From Terriglobia bacterium (GTDB lineage: Bacteria > Acidobacteriota > Terriglobia > UBA7540): a DNA stretch of 44,406 nt. How positions within the stretch are numbered: position 1 is the first letter of the stretch; every line of letters starts with the position of its first letter. The stretch is taken from positions 1-44,406 of the forward strand of contig JASHON010000168.1 in assembly GCA_030041095.1 (NCBI GenBank), read 5' to 3'. Made by a program: the position numbers and the translations under genes. The notes beneath the pieces are model-generated. The model had not been told where the DNA came from. It was given only the letters and a program-made list of their open reading frames with translations, and ran no database searches. This document shows positions 30,770-41,863 of the stretch, in pieces.

Positions 30770-32554
30770 ATGAATCGATCGTTTCAGCTTGCGGCTTATG
30801 CGGGAATGGCGCTCTTGGCGCTTATTTTGGGACTTAATGCCCCTGTGGCCACGGCGAATGCCCAGTCTGGTGGGCAGCGGCAGGGCGAAGCGACCGCACC
30901 AAGTCCCACCGAAATCAAGAAGGCCATGTTGAAAGCCTTCCTGGATACCGCTCGCATTAAAGATTTGCTAAGTGTCACACAGCCCGGCCAAGGGAAAATG
31001 ACGGATGCGGAGCGAGCGATGTTTAGCGAGCAGATGCGGTCCGTTCAAAGCGACCTCGCAACGCTGGAAAAATGGCGATACCAGTTTTTATACCACGTGA
31101 GTAATCTGGCATACGGCCGAAACACAGCTTCTGCGCTGGCCACTCTGCTCAACCACCTCCATCAGCTTGAAACTGCTGTCTCGCAATTCGGAAGCCCGGC
31201 GCAAGCCGCCCAATTCGATCAGCCCGGGAAGGAGCTGGGGAGCATTCAGAACGAAGTGCAATCCTACCTGGCGAGCTTGGCCCCCCAGCCGGAAACGCAG
31301 GCCGCCTCGCCCGCCAAGTCGAGCAGTTCTGAGACGAAACGGATTGTAGCTCACGCCGTTCCTACGCCCTTGATCACGCCCCACCAACCCGCGAAGACTG
31401 CCGCGAGTCCAGCCCACGCTGAGACCGCAGCAACAGTAGCGGAGGCCTCAGCCCCCGCCGCCGGGCAAATCAAGCAAGCCATGTTGGAAGCGTACCTGAA
31501 CACAGCCCGAATCAAGGATCTGCTGAGTGTCGCTCAGCCTGGGCGATGGAAGATGACGGATGCGGAGCGAGCGATGTTTACCGAGCAGGCGCAAGCCGTT
31601 CAGAGCGATCTCGCGGCGCTAGAAAAATGGCGCTATCAGTTTTCATACCATCTGGGTGATTTGGAATACGGCAAAAACACAGAGGCAGCGCTCGCCGTGC
31701 TGCTAGATCACCTTCACCAGCTTGAAACTGCCATCTCGCAATTCGAAAGCCCCGCACAAGCCGCCCAATTCGATCAGCCCGGGAAGGCGCTGGCTGGAAT
31801 CCAGAACCAACTTCAATCCTACCTGGCGAATCGCACTGCTCAGCAGGAAAGGAAGATGGCGGCGCTCACAAACGCTAACGGGCTGGAGACGGTGCGCATT
31901 GTGCCTCGTACGGCGCCGCCTCCGCCCCTTTCTGCCTTCGGACCCGCGAAACCTCCGCTCACTTCGGTTCAGGTGAAGGCTATTTTGAACCAAGTTTATA
32001 TGTCCGTCTTTCGCATCCGCGACCTGCTGAGCCAGGAACATCCGGCTTCGTGGAAAACTTCCTCACCAGAACGCGCAGTCGGAGAACTGGCGCGCACGGC
32101 GCTTCTCTCACGTGCGGACCGGATCGAACGCTGGCGCGCCCTCTTCAACGAGCATCCAGACAATATGTATGATGCTTTTCAGGTTTACCGCACGGTCGAG
32201 AACCTTTTCCTGCCTCTCGACGTTTTCCGCCGCAGCGTGGCCGAGCACGAGAATACGGCCTTGGCCGGCAACTATGCCATGACTGCGGCCGCCCTTCAAA
32301 ATAGTCTCGACCAGTTGACGCCGTACATTGGCTTCATCCTCGAACACGAATCGAACGGCATTGCCTTATACCGGGCGGACCTGGCCAATTGCCAGACCAA
32401 ACTGGGCTACGCGATGCACGGTCTGCTACCTGCACCGAACGCATTGCACGATGTCTTGCCGGTCTTCCAAGGCCGGCACACTGCTTCGCGGAAATCGAAG
32501 AGCGATCGCCGCGGAACCAGCCACAGGCGTAGACAGCACGCTGGCGAGAGATGA
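30770..32554 (+). CDS. Secreted protein with three related helical modules, unknown function
   Basis: 594 aa. Residues 1-31 are a signal peptide (LAAYAGMALLALILGL, ending ANA). Modules occur at about 48-171, 233-356 and 400-530. Modules 1 and 2 share long runs such as MTDAERAMF, LEKWRYQF and AAQFDQPGK, and are also near-identical in DNA, with a constant 555-nt offset. Module 3 is diverged but keeps the order (FRIRDLLS, RIERWRALFNEHP). Each is almost wholly alpha-helical. Pro/Ala-rich linkers join them. No known family recognised. A periplasmic or secreted scaffold is the simplest guess. The start codon follows AGGAGG by about eight bases. The stop abuts the enolase stop. Confidence 0.82.
   Translation: MNRSFQLAAYAGMALLALILGLNAPVATANAQSGGQRQGEATAPSPTEIKKAMLKAFLDTARIKDLLSVTQPGQGKMTDAERAMFSEQMRSVQSDLATLEKWRYQFLYHVSNLAYGRNTASALATLLNHLHQLETAVSQFGSPAQAAQFDQPGKELGSIQNEVQSYLASLAPQPETQAASPAKSSSSETKRIVAHAVPTPLITPHQPAKTAASPAHAETAATVAEASAPAAGQIKQAMLEAYLNTARIKDLLSVAQPGRWKMTDAERAMFTEQAQAVQSDLAALEKWRYQFSYHLGDLEYGKNTEAALAVLLDHLHQLETAISQFESPAQAAQFDQPGKALAGIQNQLQSYLANRTAQQERKMAALTNANGLETVRIVPRTAPPPPLSAFGPAKPPLTSVQVKAILNQVYMSVFRIRDLLSQEHPASWKTSSPERAVGELARTALLSRADRIERWRALFNEHPDNMYDAFQVYRTVENLFLPLDVFRRSVAEHENTALAGNYAMTAAALQNSLDQLTPYIGFILEHESNGIALYRADLANCQTKLGYAMHGLLPAPNALHDVLPVFQGRHTASRKSKSDRRGTSHRRRQHAGER
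30998..31830 (+). repeat. Intragenic tandem duplication, period 555 nt
   Basis: Identical stretches recur exactly 555 bp (185 codons) apart: ATGACGGATGCGGAGCGAGC starts at 30998 and again at 31553, and GCCGCCCAATTCGATCAGCC at 31205 and 31760. The unit encodes modules 1 and 2 of the secreted protein. The near-identity at DNA level suggests a fairly recent duplication or ongoing gene conversion. Confidence 0.85.
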
Positions 32555-33976: not shown

Positions 33977-36900
33977 TCATTTCATGGCCTGCAGGCCCGG
34001 CTGGATCCACGAGAAAAAGAAATTGCCGATGAACGGAAAATGAGAGGCGACGAGGGTAAGCAACGGCAGCGCGCCGAAAGCTGCCACGCGGAAGTAGAAC
34101 TCCCAACTCAACTTCCCTGGAGCTGTCTCAGAGAGACGGCTCAGAACGGAATCCTTTTCCATTTCAGCGAAAAGCTCGACAACCACAATCCCGACCGCCA
34201 CAAACATTACGATCATCACTTCATCCATGCCGCGATGCACTTCGAACGGGTAGGATGCCACGGCGAGCAGGCCAAGAGCGAAGGCGACGACCAACGAGAA
34301 GACGATGTAAGTAAGCTGTGCGCACGTGTAGCGGATGTAGTCGACGTATCGGAAGGCCACAAACTCTTCAGCGACAATCGTTCGGTCACGCGATTCGAAA
34401 GCCCTTTCCCGTGTTTTATTTGTCCGGTTTGCGGCTTCTTCGGCAGAAAGCGAATCGGAGTAGCCGCGCTCCCATTCGCTGGCGAGATAATCGCGCTGGA
34501 GTTGCTCCGAAAGTGTCCCTAACATTGACTGCAGCTCGAGGATTTCAGATTGAGGCGTACAGCGCCCGTTTTCTATATTTTCGCCGATCTGACGAGCTCT
34601 CGCTACCAGAGCCACCTCCTCAGCCTTCAGCGACGCGTCCTGGGTTTGAGCCACGAACCTTCGCAGGCAATTGATGGAGGGCGCCATCAACTTCTGGGCC
34701 CACAAGACGCTGCTCAACTTCCACAGTGGGGGACAGGAATATTGTTTTGGAAGGCGGCTGAATGCTTCGCGCAGCGGATGGCGCTCCAGCTTGTGCAACA
34801 CGGGCTTCAAATGCAGGTGCCATACATAAAGGAGCCGCCAGCAGTTGCTTAGAACCAGCGAACAGAAAGCCACCAGGCCGATAAGGAACGCGTCGTTGAA
34901 GGTAGGGGCTTCGATGCTGATCGTGCTTGGCCGGGGAGCAAACAGAGCCAGGATCAAAACAAACACGCCCACGAGGATGAGCTGCCATCCCCCGTCGTAC
35001 ACTACGTCTTGAAAAGCTCTGTCTGCGCGCTCCGCAGATGGAGCCAGTCGAAGTGCGCCTGTCAATTCAGGCAACGCGGGACGTATGCCGAGCAGTACCA
35101 GGCTGCTCAAACGCGTCCACGCCAGAAAACCAAAAGCTGCAAGGAGCAATAGCAACGGCAAAGCAGGTGATACGCCGCTTACCAGCCGCGCAGAGCGATA
35201 GCTCAGAAAATACGCGTAGTAGCTTCGGGCGCCGACGTTGCGCCACCAATACAAGGAAAAGATCGCAGACGCTGCCAACGCTACGACGCTCCAGAAGACA
35301 TACGTGAAAGCTGGCGCCATCGTCAGGCGCGGCTTTCGCTTGTCCGGTGTGACTGCTGCCAAGCGAACCTTCAGGTCGGAAAAAAGTCTGATGATCAGCC
35401 AGGCGACTGCCGCGAGAAGGCATAGGACACCGACAAGGTCAACGACCCCCAACGGTCCCGCGTCGTAAACCCTCCACGTTGGTAAGCTCACGAGCGCATG
35501 GCCAAGCAGAAGAAGCAGGGCCCCAAGGAACAGATACATCGCGCGGGGAGACACTTGCTGCTCAGTGCAGCCAGCCAGGCGAAGCCTCCTGAGCCAGATG
35601 CGCTCGGAACAGTTTGCCAGAAGCAGCAGGATCGGGTAGATAAACGACAACACGATCAGCCCCAGCCAGACGGCTTTCCACAGAAAGGGCATGGGCTCGC
35701 GCCCGGAGCTAACGCTTGAATTCCAGGTTTTGTTCAGGATGGTGATCGGCCAATATCCGTTCCGCCCCACCATCGTCAGCCATACCGGGCCGCGCTGGAC
35801 GCCTCCAAGTTTCGACCCGGGGAGCCATCCCCAAACGACCGTCTGATGCGAAGACGGCTTCCGGCCTCGCGTGAACGGATCAGGAACACGTTGCTCAAGG
35901 GCCTTGTCTCCGTGTCTTAACAGAGTGACGCACGCATTGTAAAGCGCCTCCGAGTACTCATCGGGAAATAGCACTCGTTGGGTTGTCTCAGCGGCGGTCC
36001 AGTACTGATTGCGTAAAAACAACGGATAGGAGCTAACCGCCAACAAGCCGAGAGGAGGTTGCTCACCGAGGGCTCGCAAAAAAAGCAGGTCTGGATCGAG
36101 AACTATCAGTTGCACGCCTGGGTTGGTCCGCTGCAGGAACCGGATGAGGAATAGAACGTCCAGCGGATCCGTAGCCTGGATCACAGCACCATCAATGTTT
36201 TCATCCTTCAGCTCGCGCGCCAAACTCGCCATTTCCATTTCTTGCGAAAGCGGTGTCTGCGCCTCGGAAAAAGCGGGGGGCTGATCTTCGCCAAGAGCAG
36301 GGCTCTCCTTCAAATTCAACGGAAGGTATTGCCCCGGCGTACCCGACGCCTGGCTGCCGGGCGGCGCCCAAATTTGTGGGTTCTGGTCGTAAGCTTCGCG
36401 AAGGTGGGAAATCCCTCGCGGAAACTGTAGCTGGATGAACCGCTCAGGCGAGATGGCCCAGCGGGCGCGCCAGCGGCCGTCCAAAGATTGCATCACACCG
36501 TACCCAGTGCCGCTCTCGGTCACCAAGGCTACCCGAGACGTGAAAAAATGTCCCCATTGGAGGAAATGAAAGAGATATCCCTCGCGCGTATCGTCATCCC
36601 AAAGGGTGGTTTGCGCCTCGACACAAGCGCGCTGCGGCAGCTTGCCACATTGCTGGAACAGGTCTTCGACAGCGTCCGTGCCAGTTACTGAGCCGCTTAG
36701 AATGGCGAATCGCGTATTCTGATGGCGCTGGTGAGATTGCGAAATAGCCTCCATAAAAGAGGGGGCCGAACCGGAGAAGGCTGGACCTGCCACGGGGACG
36801 CGGCATGACGCATGGTCGGAGCAACGGCCCCACCGGAAAAGGTCGTCTACCGCCCGTGTGAACTCCATCTTGTTGATGCCCCAGGTTGGAGTTTCGGCGA

Positions 36901-37513
36901 CCAGGAAGACCAGGAGCAGTTTCCTGGGCGCCGCATCGTTGTTATCCGGACCGCGAAACACCAGCACTCCTGGCTCCTGACTTCTTCGTTCGAGCTCGAG
37001 GTTGCGGCGGACGAGGTAGGAGCAATCAGGCTGGGGATCCGGGGGCTTAGAGCTCCAGGGCAGCCAGAAGGAGTAATCGCGGTTGTATCCGCTTTGCTGA
37101 GCGGCCAGGATAATAGCGTCCACGGAACGGTCGAACCACAAGGCGAGATGGCTGTGCACCGGATCAGGAACAGTGACGATGAGAGCAGTTGAGGTCTTCA
37201 GACTGGCCTGAGAGTTTGCGTCCTCCAGTACATAAGCCTGGTCTGCCGATACCAACGGCGGCGGTCCAACGAACCCGAGAGCTGAAGCTAACGCCTTCAT
37301 GGGATTCTCTTCGGCGTTCGTGCACGGGTTTGAAGGGCTGGTAGAACTGTTGGGCGATGTCGTTCGCGCGGCTTGCCTTGACTGTGCCTGTTCAGATTCT
37401 GCCGCTGGTGCCGCACCTTGCAGAGCGGATGACGCCGGCGCCGTTGACTCTCCGCGATAAAGGAATGCAGACAACGCCATTACCGCAATGACCGTTCCAG
37501 TCCATCGGTTCAT
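33977..37513 (-). CDS. Large membrane protein with periplasmic-binding-protein-like extracytoplasmic part, patatin partner
   Basis: 1178 aa from the ATG at 37513, which overlaps the patatin gene's stop by ATGA. A signal-anchor helix lies at residues 5-19. Residues 25-605 are extracytoplasmic. They contain alternating strand/helix segments recalling type I periplasmic binding proteins (TRFAILSGSVTGTDAV near 268, SRVALVTESGTGYGV near 326, IDGAVIQATDPLDVLFLI near 440, VQLIVLDPDLLFLRAL near 467). Several helices follow from residue 609 (LWKAVWLGLIVLSFIYPILLLL onward), at least eight in total, with a charged cytoplasmic region near 930-1050. No known enzyme motif found. Coupled translation with a lipase suggests a ligand-sensing partner. 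Family unknown to me. Confidence 0.8.
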   Translation of the reverse strand: MNRWTGTVIAVMALSAFLYRGESTAPASSALQGAAPAAESEQAQSRQAARTTSPNSSTSPSNPCTNAEENPMKALASALGFVGPPPLVSADQAYVLEDANSQASLKTSTALIVTVPDPVHSHLALWFDRSVDAIILAAQQSGYNRDYSFWLPWSSKPPDPQPDCSYLVRRNLELERRSQEPGVLVFRGPDNNDAAPRKLLLVFLVAETPTWGINKMEFTRAVDDLFRWGRCSDHASCRVPVAGPAFSGSAPSFMEAISQSHQRHQNTRFAILSGSVTGTDAVEDLFQQCGKLPQRACVEAQTTLWDDDTREGYLFHFLQWGHFFTSRVALVTESGTGYGVMQSLDGRWRARWAISPERFIQLQFPRGISHLREAYDQNPQIWAPPGSQASGTPGQYLPLNLKESPALGEDQPPAFSEAQTPLSQEMEMASLARELKDENIDGAVIQATDPLDVLFLIRFLQRTNPGVQLIVLDPDLLFLRALGEQPPLGLLAVSSYPLFLRNQYWTAAETTQRVLFPDEYSEALYNACVTLLRHGDKALEQRVPDPFTRGRKPSSHQTVVWGWLPGSKLGGVQRGPVWLTMVGRNGYWPITILNKTWNSSVSSGREPMPFLWKAVWLGLIVLSFIYPILLLLANCSERIWLRRLRLAGCTEQQVSPRAMYLFLGALLLLLGHALVSLPTWRVYDAGPLGVVDLVGVLCLLAAVAWLIIRLFSDLKVRLAAVTPDKRKPRLTMAPAFTYVFWSVVALAASAIFSLYWWRNVGARSYYAYFLSYRSARLVSGVSPALPLLLLLAAFGFLAWTRLSSLVLLGIRPALPELTGALRLAPSAERADRAFQDVVYDGGWQLILVGVFVLILALFAPRPSTISIEAPTFNDAFLIGLVAFCSLVLSNCWRLLYVWHLHLKPVLHKLERHPLREAFSRLPKQYSCPPLWKLSSVLWAQKLMAPSINCLRRFVAQTQDASLKAEEVALVARARQIGENIENGRCTPQSEILELQSMLGTLSEQLQRDYLASEWERGYSDSLSAEEAANRTNKTRERAFESRDRTIVAEEFVAFRYVDYIRYTCAQLTYIVFSLVVAFALGLLAVASYPFEVHRGMDEVMIVMFVAVGIVVVELFAEMEKDSVLSRLSETAPGKLSWEFYFRVAAFGALPLLTLVASHFPFIGNFFFSWIQPGLQAMK

Positions 37514-40500
37514 GGCTTTTCCCCTTGGCTTTTCCGAAAGTTCAATGCAACCCCGATTGCGAAACCGAGCACGCCAACGACAGCAAGCCAGAGGATTGCG
37601 TGCCAAGTCGGCAAGCGCACGGGCGCGGAGCCGGGCGTCAAATGAACGACGCGCAAACAGATTTCAGGCAGCGCCGAATAGCTCAGGATTGAAAGGGCGA
37701 GAAACAGAGGGATCAGCAGCATCCATCTCCAGCGCATTCCGAAGAGCTGCCCTGCCAGGCACATCAGCGCCAGCACACCAGCGGGCGCCACAATCAAAAC
37801 ACCGAGCCAGACGAAGGAAAAATGACCATCAGGAAAAAGCACGGAATCCCGTGCCGCGATGCCGACCAGAAGCAGAGCCACACAAACGGCCCAAATCGCA
37901 ATTCGCCGGTAGCGTTCATCCCCTGGACTCTTGTGCCACCAGAGAGCGTACCCATAGAGAAGGCGGAGCGGACGATCAATAACCCACCGGAACGCCGCGC
38001 TACTCTCGATTGGCTTGCCAGTCGAGCCGAGCGCGGTCAGCGCGCACCGGAGCAGGACTCGTGCAGCTCGGAGAACCGTTAATGACAAGACCGCAGGAGG
38101 CAGATTCTGTAACAGATTTGTGCTCTTCAGGCCGAAATAGTTCACAAAGAACTGGCCCAGCGGCGTTTCTCGGGGTGTATTGCCGGGCAACGGCTGGCGG
38201 CCTTCGATATCGCCGATTCCACGTTCGGCAGCCACTGCGGTTGCAATCGCTACACTCGTTGGGTCCAATTCTCCGCTGCCCTCTCTAAACGCGCCAGCAT
38301 TAGGATCGAACCTCAAGGGCCCTTGAGCCCTCGCCGCAGCGTTCCTCCCACCGGAGCCTCGCGTCGAGTAGGAATTCCATTCCAGTTGCTCTTGGGCGGC
38401 ATCGTGCGCAACTTGTGGTAGAAGTTCGTGGATTACTTCGTACTGCGCCATCTCAATCAGTAATTCCAAGGGACCACCGATGGTTGAGCCGCCAGCCCCA
38501 TTAGCCCCCCCGGGAGGCAGCTCATCGAGCGCTTTTTTCCTTTCGTCTTGACTATTCGAGAGTAGCCGTTCGAGCCAGTCGAGAAGCGCCTTGCGACTTC
38601 CCGGGCTGTTATTGGGGAAGAGCCTGTCAGGGTGAAGCGGATGGTTTCCCGAAATGGAGGAGCCGTTTTCAGTGTTGGTGAGCCCAAAACGATTCCGGAT
38701 TTTCTTCAGTTCCAGCCTTTCTTCGTCTCGGGTGGGAATGATCCTGCATAGCCGGTCCTTCTTTAGCAGGGATTCGGCAAGCTGGCAGATTCCATCCAAA
38801 CGGCCCCACATGATGTCGTTCGACCGCCACGACTGTTTAAAGAACGCTGCGAAATGGTAAAACCCGATCCCTGCTACTTTCTCGTTCGGTTTCTTGCGAC
38901 TGAAGCCGCGCTGCGCGTCGCAAGGGCTCAGGCGAACGGTCTTGATGACGTCCCGGCACTGCAGTTCTCCTGCAAGCTCGATAGGATAAAGAACGGAATC
39001 CACTGCCTCAAAGTTCGCATAGGCAGTGCGAACCCGATCTCCAGGTTCGGTCAACGCCGCGAAAGCTCGCTCGGTGCACCCATCGACCGCGGAGAGCACG
39101 CTCCTGAACCGTTCGGGTTGGGGCACGGCGTTGGGTTCGCACTTTCTGAGTTCATCGCGAATAGAACGCAGCCCATCAATTACTGTGCTGAGCGTTGCCT
39201 GCGGCAGCCATTCCCCCTCCAGCGCAAGCAGGGACTTTTCTCTCCATCCCGGTTCCCACGATCTGCAGTAATCTTCCAAGCAATCCTCATATTTCGCGCG
39301 GGCGCCCTGGTGATCCAGCACCGGCAAGCTTCCTTCGACGTTTAGAAGATTCTTCAGAAGGTTCTCGACGAGCTCCCACGTCCCTTTAACATCTATTTGG
39401 TGCGGACTCTCGATTTTGGTCCAATCAATGATCTGATAGAGGTCTACCAGCTCCTCCATCACCGTCCGTACGATCTGCAGAAACTCAATCTGCCGGTTGA
39501 GGACATAACGAAGTTTTAGATAGTTCCTGGCCTGGTCGCTTTGAAGGTCGACGGTCCTGTCCTTATAAAGGATGTCCCGGATCAGAAGAACAGCATGAAA
39601 TGTTCGACGCAGACGATAGTGAACATCTATGTCTTCAAGAACAGCGCTCTTATTGTTCTCCCCTTCGACGAGCTCCAAAAGCCCGGCGGCAAGCTTCTCT
39701 GCCGCTTGCGCCTCTACAGGGTTCAATGGCACGGCGCGAATGAGGTTATCCCCTGGCTCACCCTGCCTCAGCGCGCCCTCGATAACCGTTTGTCCAAGAC
39801 CAAGGAGCCTGCTCCGAAGGTACAGACCCACGGCAGGCCGATCCATCTTCTCCGGGTCCTCCCATAATTGTTCGTGGATTTTCCTCGTGAGGAGCTGGTA
39901 GCGCTTCACCTTGCTATTTTGCTCGGCCAACTCCTGGAGGTCGCTTGCGATGCTTTGATAGTCGGGGAGCGAAACCAGCGAATCGGAAATGCCTTCGAAA
40001 AAGCTCGGCGCTTTGGCCAATCCTTCCTGCTGTTCCTTGAGCACGTTCTCGAATCGCTCCGGGTCAGGCTCAACATAGAGGAGCAGACGCTCGACTTCCG
40101 TATTGGCCAGCCGATCGATGATGTCACGAATGGTGTAGCCGAAAGGCTTGTTGTAAAGCACGCCGCCGTCAACAAGGTAAGCCTTTACGCCCATTCGCCC
40201 CCATCTCTGCAGCCAGCCATCGACGCTGCTGGGAGTTCGCCCATCTTCCTTCGCATCCTCAACCTCGACGGGCGAAAACGCCGCCGGAAAAGCCGAGGTA
40301 ATCCGGGCCAGTTTCGCCAGCGAGTCACGCGTTTCTAAGCTAAAAGGCAACTTACGGCCGAGCCGGTGGCGAAGGATGAAAACCGTGCGGTGGTCCTTCA
40401 CGGTGATGGCGTGGCCTGCGTCGTCAATCTGGGTAAAAATGTTGCCGCCGACGTTCGTCCCGGAAATAAAGAGGTCAAGCTCCTTGACGTGCGGTCGTTC

Positions 40501-41067
40501 ACTTTTCTTGTTCCCCCCGTCCGGGAAAACCCCGTCAAACACACCCGAGGGAGTTTCGACGACACTCTGATCGATGTCTCGCACCGCCCGAAAAGCGTCC
40601 TGCAATCGGTTCTGATAATAACCCTCGCTGTCAAAAAGCGAGGTGAATGTGCCCGGTGTGCCATCCGGCTGACGAAGCAGGAGCGAGACGTCGCCTTGTT
40701 CCCGCCAAAGCGGGGCGAAGTCTCCGAATTCCTTTTCGTTGCAGAGGGCATACGCCAGGAAGATTCCGTTGATTCCTCCTGCCGACGCGCCGCTGACGAT
40801 ATCCACAATGATGTCGGAGTCAGTCAATGCCTTGATCAGTGCGTAGATCCCGCGGCCGCGTACGGCATTAAAGAACTCCTGCGCCACCCCGTTCATATAA
40901 ACAGCCAGTGAAACGCCTCCATAGAGCACAAGTCCCAGGCGCACTTCCCGGCTCATACCATCAAATTCAGTAGCTGGAGGTTGAGCCTCAGGCACTGGCG
41001 CCTTCTGCGGCTCCCCTTCAGCTGGCTGAGTCCGTACGGGGCGTGCTGGCCCGTTGGAATTTGTCAT
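37510..41067 (-). CDS. Patatin-like phospholipase, large form with C-terminal membrane helices
   Basis: 1185 aa. The patatin domain spans roughly residues 40-430: LGLVLYGGVSLAVYMNG (oxyanion hole, 45-60), GASAGG with nucleophile Ser95, and LVDGG with Asp300 completing the Ser-Asp dyad; RITSAFPAAFSP near 255 is also typical. This matches the patatin-related long-protein group rather than short CapV-like lipases. Residues 430-1000 are a helical region of unknown role. The last 150 residues hold about four transmembrane helices (WAVCVALLLVGIAA, VWLGVLIVAPAGVLALM, WMLLIPLFLALSILSY, ILWLAVVGVLGFAIGVAL). Expected activity: hydrolysis of membrane phospholipids. GAGG lies eight bases before the ATG. 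It leads a two-gene operon. Confidence 0.9.
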   Translation of the reverse strand: MTNSNGPARPVRTQPAEGEPQKAPVPEAQPPATEFDGMSREVRLGLVLYGGVSLAVYMNGVAQEFFNAVRGRGIYALIKALTDSDIIVDIVSGASAGGINGIFLAYALCNEKEFGDFAPLWREQGDVSLLLRQPDGTPGTFTSLFDSEGYYQNRLQDAFRAVRDIDQSVVETPSGVFDGVFPDGGNKKSERPHVKELDLFISGTNVGGNIFTQIDDAGHAITVKDHRTVFILRHRLGRKLPFSLETRDSLAKLARITSAFPAAFSPVEVEDAKEDGRTPSSVDGWLQRWGRMGVKAYLVDGGVLYNKPFGYTIRDIIDRLANTEVERLLLYVEPDPERFENVLKEQQEGLAKAPSFFEGISDSLVSLPDYQSIASDLQELAEQNSKVKRYQLLTRKIHEQLWEDPEKMDRPAVGLYLRSRLLGLGQTVIEGALRQGEPGDNLIRAVPLNPVEAQAAEKLAAGLLELVEGENNKSAVLEDIDVHYRLRRTFHAVLLIRDILYKDRTVDLQSDQARNYLKLRYVLNRQIEFLQIVRTVMEELVDLYQIIDWTKIESPHQIDVKGTWELVENLLKNLLNVEGSLPVLDHQGARAKYEDCLEDYCRSWEPGWREKSLLALEGEWLPQATLSTVIDGLRSIRDELRKCEPNAVPQPERFRSVLSAVDGCTERAFAALTEPGDRVRTAYANFEAVDSVLYPIELAGELQCRDVIKTVRLSPCDAQRGFSRKKPNEKVAGIGFYHFAAFFKQSWRSNDIMWGRLDGICQLAESLLKKDRLCRIIPTRDEERLELKKIRNRFGLTNTENGSSISGNHPLHPDRLFPNNSPGSRKALLDWLERLLSNSQDERKKALDELPPGGANGAGGSTIGGPLELLIEMAQYEVIHELLPQVAHDAAQEQLEWNSYSTRGSGGRNAAARAQGPLRFDPNAGAFREGSGELDPTSVAIATAVAAERGIGDIEGRQPLPGNTPRETPLGQFFVNYFGLKSTNLLQNLPPAVLSLTVLRAARVLLRCALTALGSTGKPIESSAAFRWVIDRPLRLLYGYALWWHKSPGDERYRRIAIWAVCVALLLVGIAARDSVLFPDGHFSFVWLGVLIVAPAGVLALMCLAGQLFGMRWRWMLLIPLFLALSILSYSALPEICLRVVHLTPGSAPVRLPTWHAILWLAVVGVLGFAIGVALNFRKSQGEKP

Positions 41068-41572: not shown

Positions 41573-41863
41573 GTGATACCCCAAAGCCCTCGAATTGAAA
41601 TACGCTACTGCACCCAGTGCCGGTGGCTTCTGCGTGCCGCATGGATGGCGCAGGAGCTGCTCACAACTTTTCAGGATGAGATTGGCGAAGTGGCGCTCGT
41701 TCCAGGCACTGGAGGCATCTTCGAGGTGCGGGCCGGTGACGACCTTCTCTGGTCGCGGGCGGAACGCGGCCGCTTTCCAGACATCAAAGAACTCAAGCAG
41801 CTTGTCCGCGACCGCATCGCTCCGCAAAAAGATCTCGGACATGCTGAGCGCCGGGCGGAATAG
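41573..41863 (+). CDS. SelT/SelW/SelH (Rdx) family thioredoxin-fold protein, Cys form
   Basis: A 96-aa protein. IEIRYCTQCRWLLRAAW near residue 8 carries the redox CxxC motif. FQDEIGEVALVPGTGGIFEV and GRFPDIKELKQLVRD follow the SelW/Rdx pattern (the GxFPDxKxLKQ segment is distinctive). In selenoprotein relatives the second Cys is often Sec; here both are Cys. The family is thought to work in thiol redox balance, though substrates are poorly known. The start is GTG at 41573; the nearby upstream ATG is out of frame and quickly stopped. It converges on the mnmG end. Confidence 0.85.
   Translation: MIPQSPRIEIRYCTQCRWLLRAAWMAQELLTTFQDEIGEVALVPGTGGIFEVRAGDDLLWSRAERGRFPDIKELKQLVRDRIAPQKDLGHAERRAE

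Follow-up and report, generated by a model that had tools for sequence, protein, structure and literature searches.

When the gene for a large lipase overlaps the gene for a large membrane protein, do the 2 products work together and, if so, how could the second control the first? This question is raised by a locus in a 44,406-nucleotide stretch of DNA from a Terriglobia bacterium (hereafter the window). An earlier note, made from the sequence alone, had proposed a coupled system in which a ligand sensed outside by the membrane protein (the partner) controls phospholipid hydrolysis inside by the lipase, a patatin. We examined the locus, both protein families and the loci at which their members occur.

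A two-gene operon in an unconserved setting

Both genes lie on the minus strand, the patatin gene upstream and the partner gene downstream, and the 1185-aa and 1178-aa reading frames and 4-base ATGA overlap described in the earlier note were found exactly as it gave them (Table 1). On the evidence of their relatives both reading frames are real genes, because each has distant homologues elsewhere with conserved motifs, and the window locus is a two-gene operon. A scan for promoters and terminators gave signals no more than those of shuffled sequences.

Table 1. Features of the locus, with positions in the window.
Feature	Position	Strand	Basis
Patatin-like lipase, TIGR03607/DUF3376, 1185 aa	37510..41067	-	TIGR03607 E 2.7e-111, DUF3376 E 5.1e-22, Patatin E 8e-19
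Patatin Pfam domain PF01734, residues 46-311	40135..40932	-	70.9 bits in genome search
Nucleophile Ser95 codon, in GASAG (residues 93-97)	40783..40785	-	sequence motif; Ser95 invariant in 10 diverse homologues
Catalytic Asp300 codon, in DGG (residues 300-302)	40168..40170	-	motif; D300, G301, G302 invariant
DUF3376 match, residues 688-849, holding WRSNDIMWGR	38521..39006	-	Pfam; W747-R756 invariant
Four C-terminal transmembrane helices, residues 1060-1175	37543..37890	-	hydropathy; long helices in low-confidence model
ATGA stop/start overlap	37510..37513	-	4 bases shared by patatin stop and partner start; junction ...AAGCC ATGA ACCGA...
Partner, polytopic membrane protein, 1178 aa	33977..37513	-	homologue alignments; 42/299 class genomes
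Conserved extracytoplasmic domain, residues about 98-600	35714..37222	-	family alignments; E333, P365, D452, P181, G212 invariant in 41 members
Ten predicted transmembrane segments, residues 614-1157, C-terminal part conserved	34043..35674	-	hydropathy
Rdx-family (SelW-like) gene, between patatin and MnmG	41573-41863	+	PF10262 E 2.5e-33

Enolase follows the pair on the same strand, 115 bases downstream, and the patatin is preceded by the opposite-strand Rdx-family gene and then by MnmG. The synteny around enolase is not kept in 15 related genomes, so that an empty site for the pair cannot be defined, and a genome of the same genus (G247) has neither gene. A recent import of the pair, judged by base composition, was rejected, since its GC and GC3 resemble those of the other window genes. 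Facing enolase on the plus strand (30770-32554), a 594-aa secreted-looking protein contains 2 similar internal repeats and has no convincing family match.

The lipase belongs to a known but unstudied family

Scoring 373.8 bits against NCBIfam TIGR03607 (curated cut-off 262.45) and 79.3 bits against Pfam DUF3376 (PF11856, cut-off 25), the window lipase belongs, by these sequence matches, to a known but unstudied family, and the literature searched contained no mention of TIGR03607, or of DUF3376 together with patatin. It is the only protein of the window genome that matches the Patatin domain PF01734. Conservation was read from an alignment of the window protein with nine sequences from Nitrospirota, Cyanobacteriota, Myxococcota, Bacillota and others, across which the catalytic residues and the WRSNDIMWGR signature are invariant; the Ser95-Asp300 dyad is thus intact, as had been claimed. 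The 4 C-terminal helices proposed earlier likewise correspond to strong hydrophobic segments. Hydropathy also marks a weaker fifth segment at residues 992-1010, and the protein has no obvious signal peptide.

An AlphaFold model built on the ten-sequence alignment had a mean pLDDT of 55, rising to 65-89 in much of the catalytic core. Its best matches among solved structures were all patatin-fold proteins (a lipase complex, CapV, PlpD, CapE and a plant patatin), with Z scores of 16-18 and rmsd values of 3.8-5.5 over about 240-295 residues. Because the matched range, from about residue 40 to about residue 769, far exceeds the size of the solved enzymes (only about 250-360 residues) and helices are predicted at 373-700, we infer from these ranges that roughly 370 residues of helical insertion split the catalytic fold, which the DUF3376 part then completes. 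With the CBASS effectors CapV and CapE the window lipase shares the patatin fold and the Ser-Asp dyad, but it is much larger, with the predicted insertion and C-terminal membrane helices. It also shares the catalytic fold of PlpD (Z 17) and other secreted patatin lipases, whereas it has no obvious signal peptide or autotransporter barrel and is membrane-anchored.

The partner represents an undescribed family

By hydropathy the partner begins with a signal or anchor segment, continues with about 590 residues outside the cytoplasm and has 10 hydrophobic segments from residue 614 on. No match to it was found in Pfam, NCBIfam, PADLOC or PDB sequences. Its homologues are mostly 21-35% identical, and in an alignment of 41 near-complete copies the most conserved residues are P116, D117, P118, D128, P181, G212, G243, P244, E333, P365, R372 and D452 in the extracytoplasmic part, together with the C-terminal end; the segment at about 1047-1178 was repeatedly matched alone in distant homologues. 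Members occur in 15/247 genomes of the phylum and 42/299 of the class, compared with 1/193 in a control set drawn from the phylum to which a myxococcal genome belongs, which centres the family on Acidobacteriota. As judged from these comparisons, the partner family is undescribed, diverse and mainly acidobacterial.

Several copies (L142, L147, L150, G171 and G210) are broken by stops, inserted genes or splits, which suggests an accessory gene that decays frequently, though draft-assembly errors may account for the broken copies. With the patterns used, relatives of neither protein were found on viral contigs; plasmids yielded seven distant patatins and no partner.

The extracytoplasmic part is about as large as the earlier note had described, and the likeness suggested there between it and type I periplasmic binding proteins is unproven. 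The domain looks alpha/beta and, by eye, some of its motifs are arranged in much the same sequence as in type I binding proteins (Peripla_BP_6/ANF_receptor), from which the partner differs in being fused to 10 membrane helices and in having no significant profile or structure match. A profile of 40 extracytoplasmic domains found nothing among PDB sequences, even at E 10, and the 40 members searched singly against Pfam gave scattered weak matches, one of them to ANF_receptor (E 0.1). Aligned with Peripla_BP_6 (18 proteins) by hhalign, the domain profile scored 21.0, within the range of block-shuffled controls, which reached 21.8 and 23.4. An AlphaFold model of the domain, built from two sequences only, had a pLDDT of 38.1, and its Foldseek matches were meaningless.

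The pairing is rare but recurs

To establish how often the 2 genes go together, we read 21 distinct TIGR03607 loci with their surroundings and 49 partner loci. TIGR03607 patatins scored above the cut-off in 6/247 genomes of the phylum and were found in 11/299 of the class. The partner adjoins such a patatin at 2 of the 21 loci, the window and L046/L073, and is missing beside it at the other 19; the sequence of 2 of the 21 (L066 and L070) runs out close to the patatin, and the genomes of both contain no partner. Seen from the other side, a patatin of any type stands beside the partner in 3/49 loci (the window, L046 and L047) and is absent from 46. In L046/L073, which comes from a distant acidobacterium (G242), the partner gene is first and 5 bases separate the 2 genes, a gap that widens to about 30 if the first ATG is taken as the patatin start. 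L047 carries a different patatin of 903 residues (PF01734 E 1.8e-9) directly upstream of the partner. Outside the window, TIGR03607 patatin and partner co-occur in three genomes found, being adjacent in G242 and on different contigs in G210 and G412. In the seven TIGR03607 genomes reached by a protein search, six outside Acidobacteriota and one other Terriglobia, the partner is absent genome-wide (0/7).

By the refutation test that the earlier note had itself set, a dedicated, conserved patatin-partner module fails on these counts, because patatin homologues usually occur without the partner. Of the coupled sensor proposed earlier, the membrane-anchored intact lipase, the translational coupling and a recurring pairing stand, and the module does not. 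The earlier note knew of no described system that combines these 2 proteins, which is consistent with the libraries and literature searched.

The recurrence nevertheless calls for an explanation. In our tree the window patatin falls among patatins that lack the partner, from Nitrospirota, Cyanobacteriota, Pseudomonadota and other Acidobacteriota; the L073 patatin lies outside this group, and a sister relation of the two paired TIGR03607 patatins was rejected (AU p 0.007). A single clade of the window and L046 partner genes was compatible with the data but not favoured by them (AU p 0.29). That the paired patatins are not sisters, and that the two loci differ in gene order, makes more than one origin of the pairing probable, as far as these trees go; an early pairing followed by many losses is possible. 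Leaving the window aside, one of the three genomes that have both genes has them adjacent. Assuming about 4500 genes per genome, we estimate random adjacency at roughly 1 in 2000 per genome and the probability of this outcome by chance at the order of 0.001. Only three pairings are known, and one of them, in the window, is where the analysis started. Chance hardly explains a joining in the opposite order and a third with another patatin, and such recurrence is a hint of a functional link. We hold with modest confidence that the relation between patatin and partner is real, functional and optional: the 2 are usually apart, and their pairing, though rare, is probably non-random by these counts and is not an established sensor-lipase system.

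Neighbours of the partner at other loci

Elsewhere the partner mostly stands by itself or has unrelated genes as neighbours, and its company provides leads only. At five loci in genomes of the same family (L117, L119, L120, L121 and L123) an FAD-linked oxidase lies just upstream of it and, in four of these five loci, a cholesterol-oxidase-like GMC oxidoreductase sequence lies further upstream, making up a different, conserved neighbourhood. Within about 7 kb, a PF04185-type phosphoesterase (tested against Pfam for L137, by similarity for the others) and a three-helix protein of 320-360 residues are present in L052, L133 and L137. The three-helix protein, with no Pfam match for the 2 copies tested (L046 and L052), is found near the partner in L046:12428-13489, L052:13478-14533, L133:18416-19501 and L137:2440-3405, and accompanies the PF04185-like phosphoesterase in 3 of these 4 loci (L052, L133 and L137).

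A SLATT or DUF4231-type gene occurs in L120 and L133 (Pfam-tested for L133); directly downstream of the partner, L120:4730-7042 encodes a glyoxalase, the SLATT-like gene and a TIR-FGE-sulfatase protein. The partner of L047:5687-15366 is flanked by its patatin, which has 11 hydrophobic segments, and by a downstream animal haem peroxidase, possibly forming a lipid-oxidising cluster. In L049:5307-8057 a contractile tail sheath gene and a tube-gene-like neighbour stand next to the partner copy, and sheath-like and tube-like genes are also near the L074 patatin.

What the pair may do

Our preferred reading, held tentatively, is that the 2 products of the operon form a complex in the membrane, the partner positioning or gating the lipase, and that envelope lipid is hydrolysed in response. 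The lipase, with a patatin fold and a long helical insertion, would be tethered through its C-terminal helices, and its active site would face the cytoplasm, since the patatin has no signal peptide. The partner would be an inner-membrane protein with a large alpha/beta domain outside, whose 10 helices could dock the lipase. Being mostly found without any lipase, the partner family would have a job of its own and would have been joined to a patatin here and at 2 other loci; hydrolysis of envelope lipid would then follow upon something that the partner binds or transports. The two genes, the catalytic residues, the fold class of the lipase, the overlap and the recurring pairing are established; we infer the complex together with its orientation, substrate and gating, and sensing outside with hydrolysis inside is the hypothesis that it offers.

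Almost as likely is that the 2 genes simply share a transcription unit and act independently, for example in lipid turnover and in solute binding or transport, the adjacencies reflecting the shuffling of accessory regions. Both families mostly occur alone, the patatin has its nearest relatives in Nitrospirota, another acidobacterium, Cyanobacteriota and Pseudomonadota, all of which lack the partner, and the absence of both genes from G247 marks the pair as accessory. Against this reading, the genes overlap at start and stop, and the pairing recurs, probably independently and even with a different type of patatin. Remodelling of envelope lipids without signalling, in which the lipase recycles or edits lipids or glycolipids that the partner moves or binds across the inner membrane, seems unlikely. 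Ten helices are more than a simple receptor needs, and lipid- or sterol-acting enzyme types are found near some partner loci (GMC cholesterol-oxidase-like and FAD-linked oxidases, the phospholipase C-like PF04185 phosphoesterase and the haem peroxidase), but such neighbours are a minority and the same-family loci are closely related and so not independent.

A little less likely again is the model of the earlier note as it stood, a sensor system dedicated to the purpose and made of these two genes, where ligand sensing by a type I periplasmic binding domain would switch the lipase: the motif order as judged by eye and the weak ANF_receptor match of 1 of the 40 members speak for it, while the Peripla_BP_6 comparison was no better than its controls, the domain profile has no PDB match and the patatin usually lacks the partner. 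The earlier note had also raised a membrane-damaging defence. By analogy with CBASS CapV, the partner could be the trigger and the patatin the effector of an anti-phage system, which we regard as very improbable. The nearest structural matches include CapV and CapE, PADLOC gave a partial, weak phospholipase match (E 2.8e-4), and SLATT and TIR genes lie near two other partner loci; however, the structural matches would hold for any patatin fold and the partner family is mostly solitary. The flanks of the window pair are enolase, MnmG and the Rdx-family gene, and no adjacent CD-NTase cyclase gene or other defence gene was recognised among the neighbouring proteins scanned.

The partners could form a new family of receptors or transporters in the acidobacterial envelope, with an extracytoplasmic domain that governs recruited neighbour enzymes, patatins here and perhaps oxidases or phosphoesterases elsewhere, with an outside signal triggering lipid hydrolysis inside, an idea that we consider speculative and improbable. 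The partner family occurs in about 1/7 of the class genomes but has no model in Pfam or NCBIfam, which is an annotation gap. TIGR03607 patatins are thinly scattered across many phyla, with no assigned function found in our searches, and the recurring membrane partner provides a handle for testing what controls one of them.
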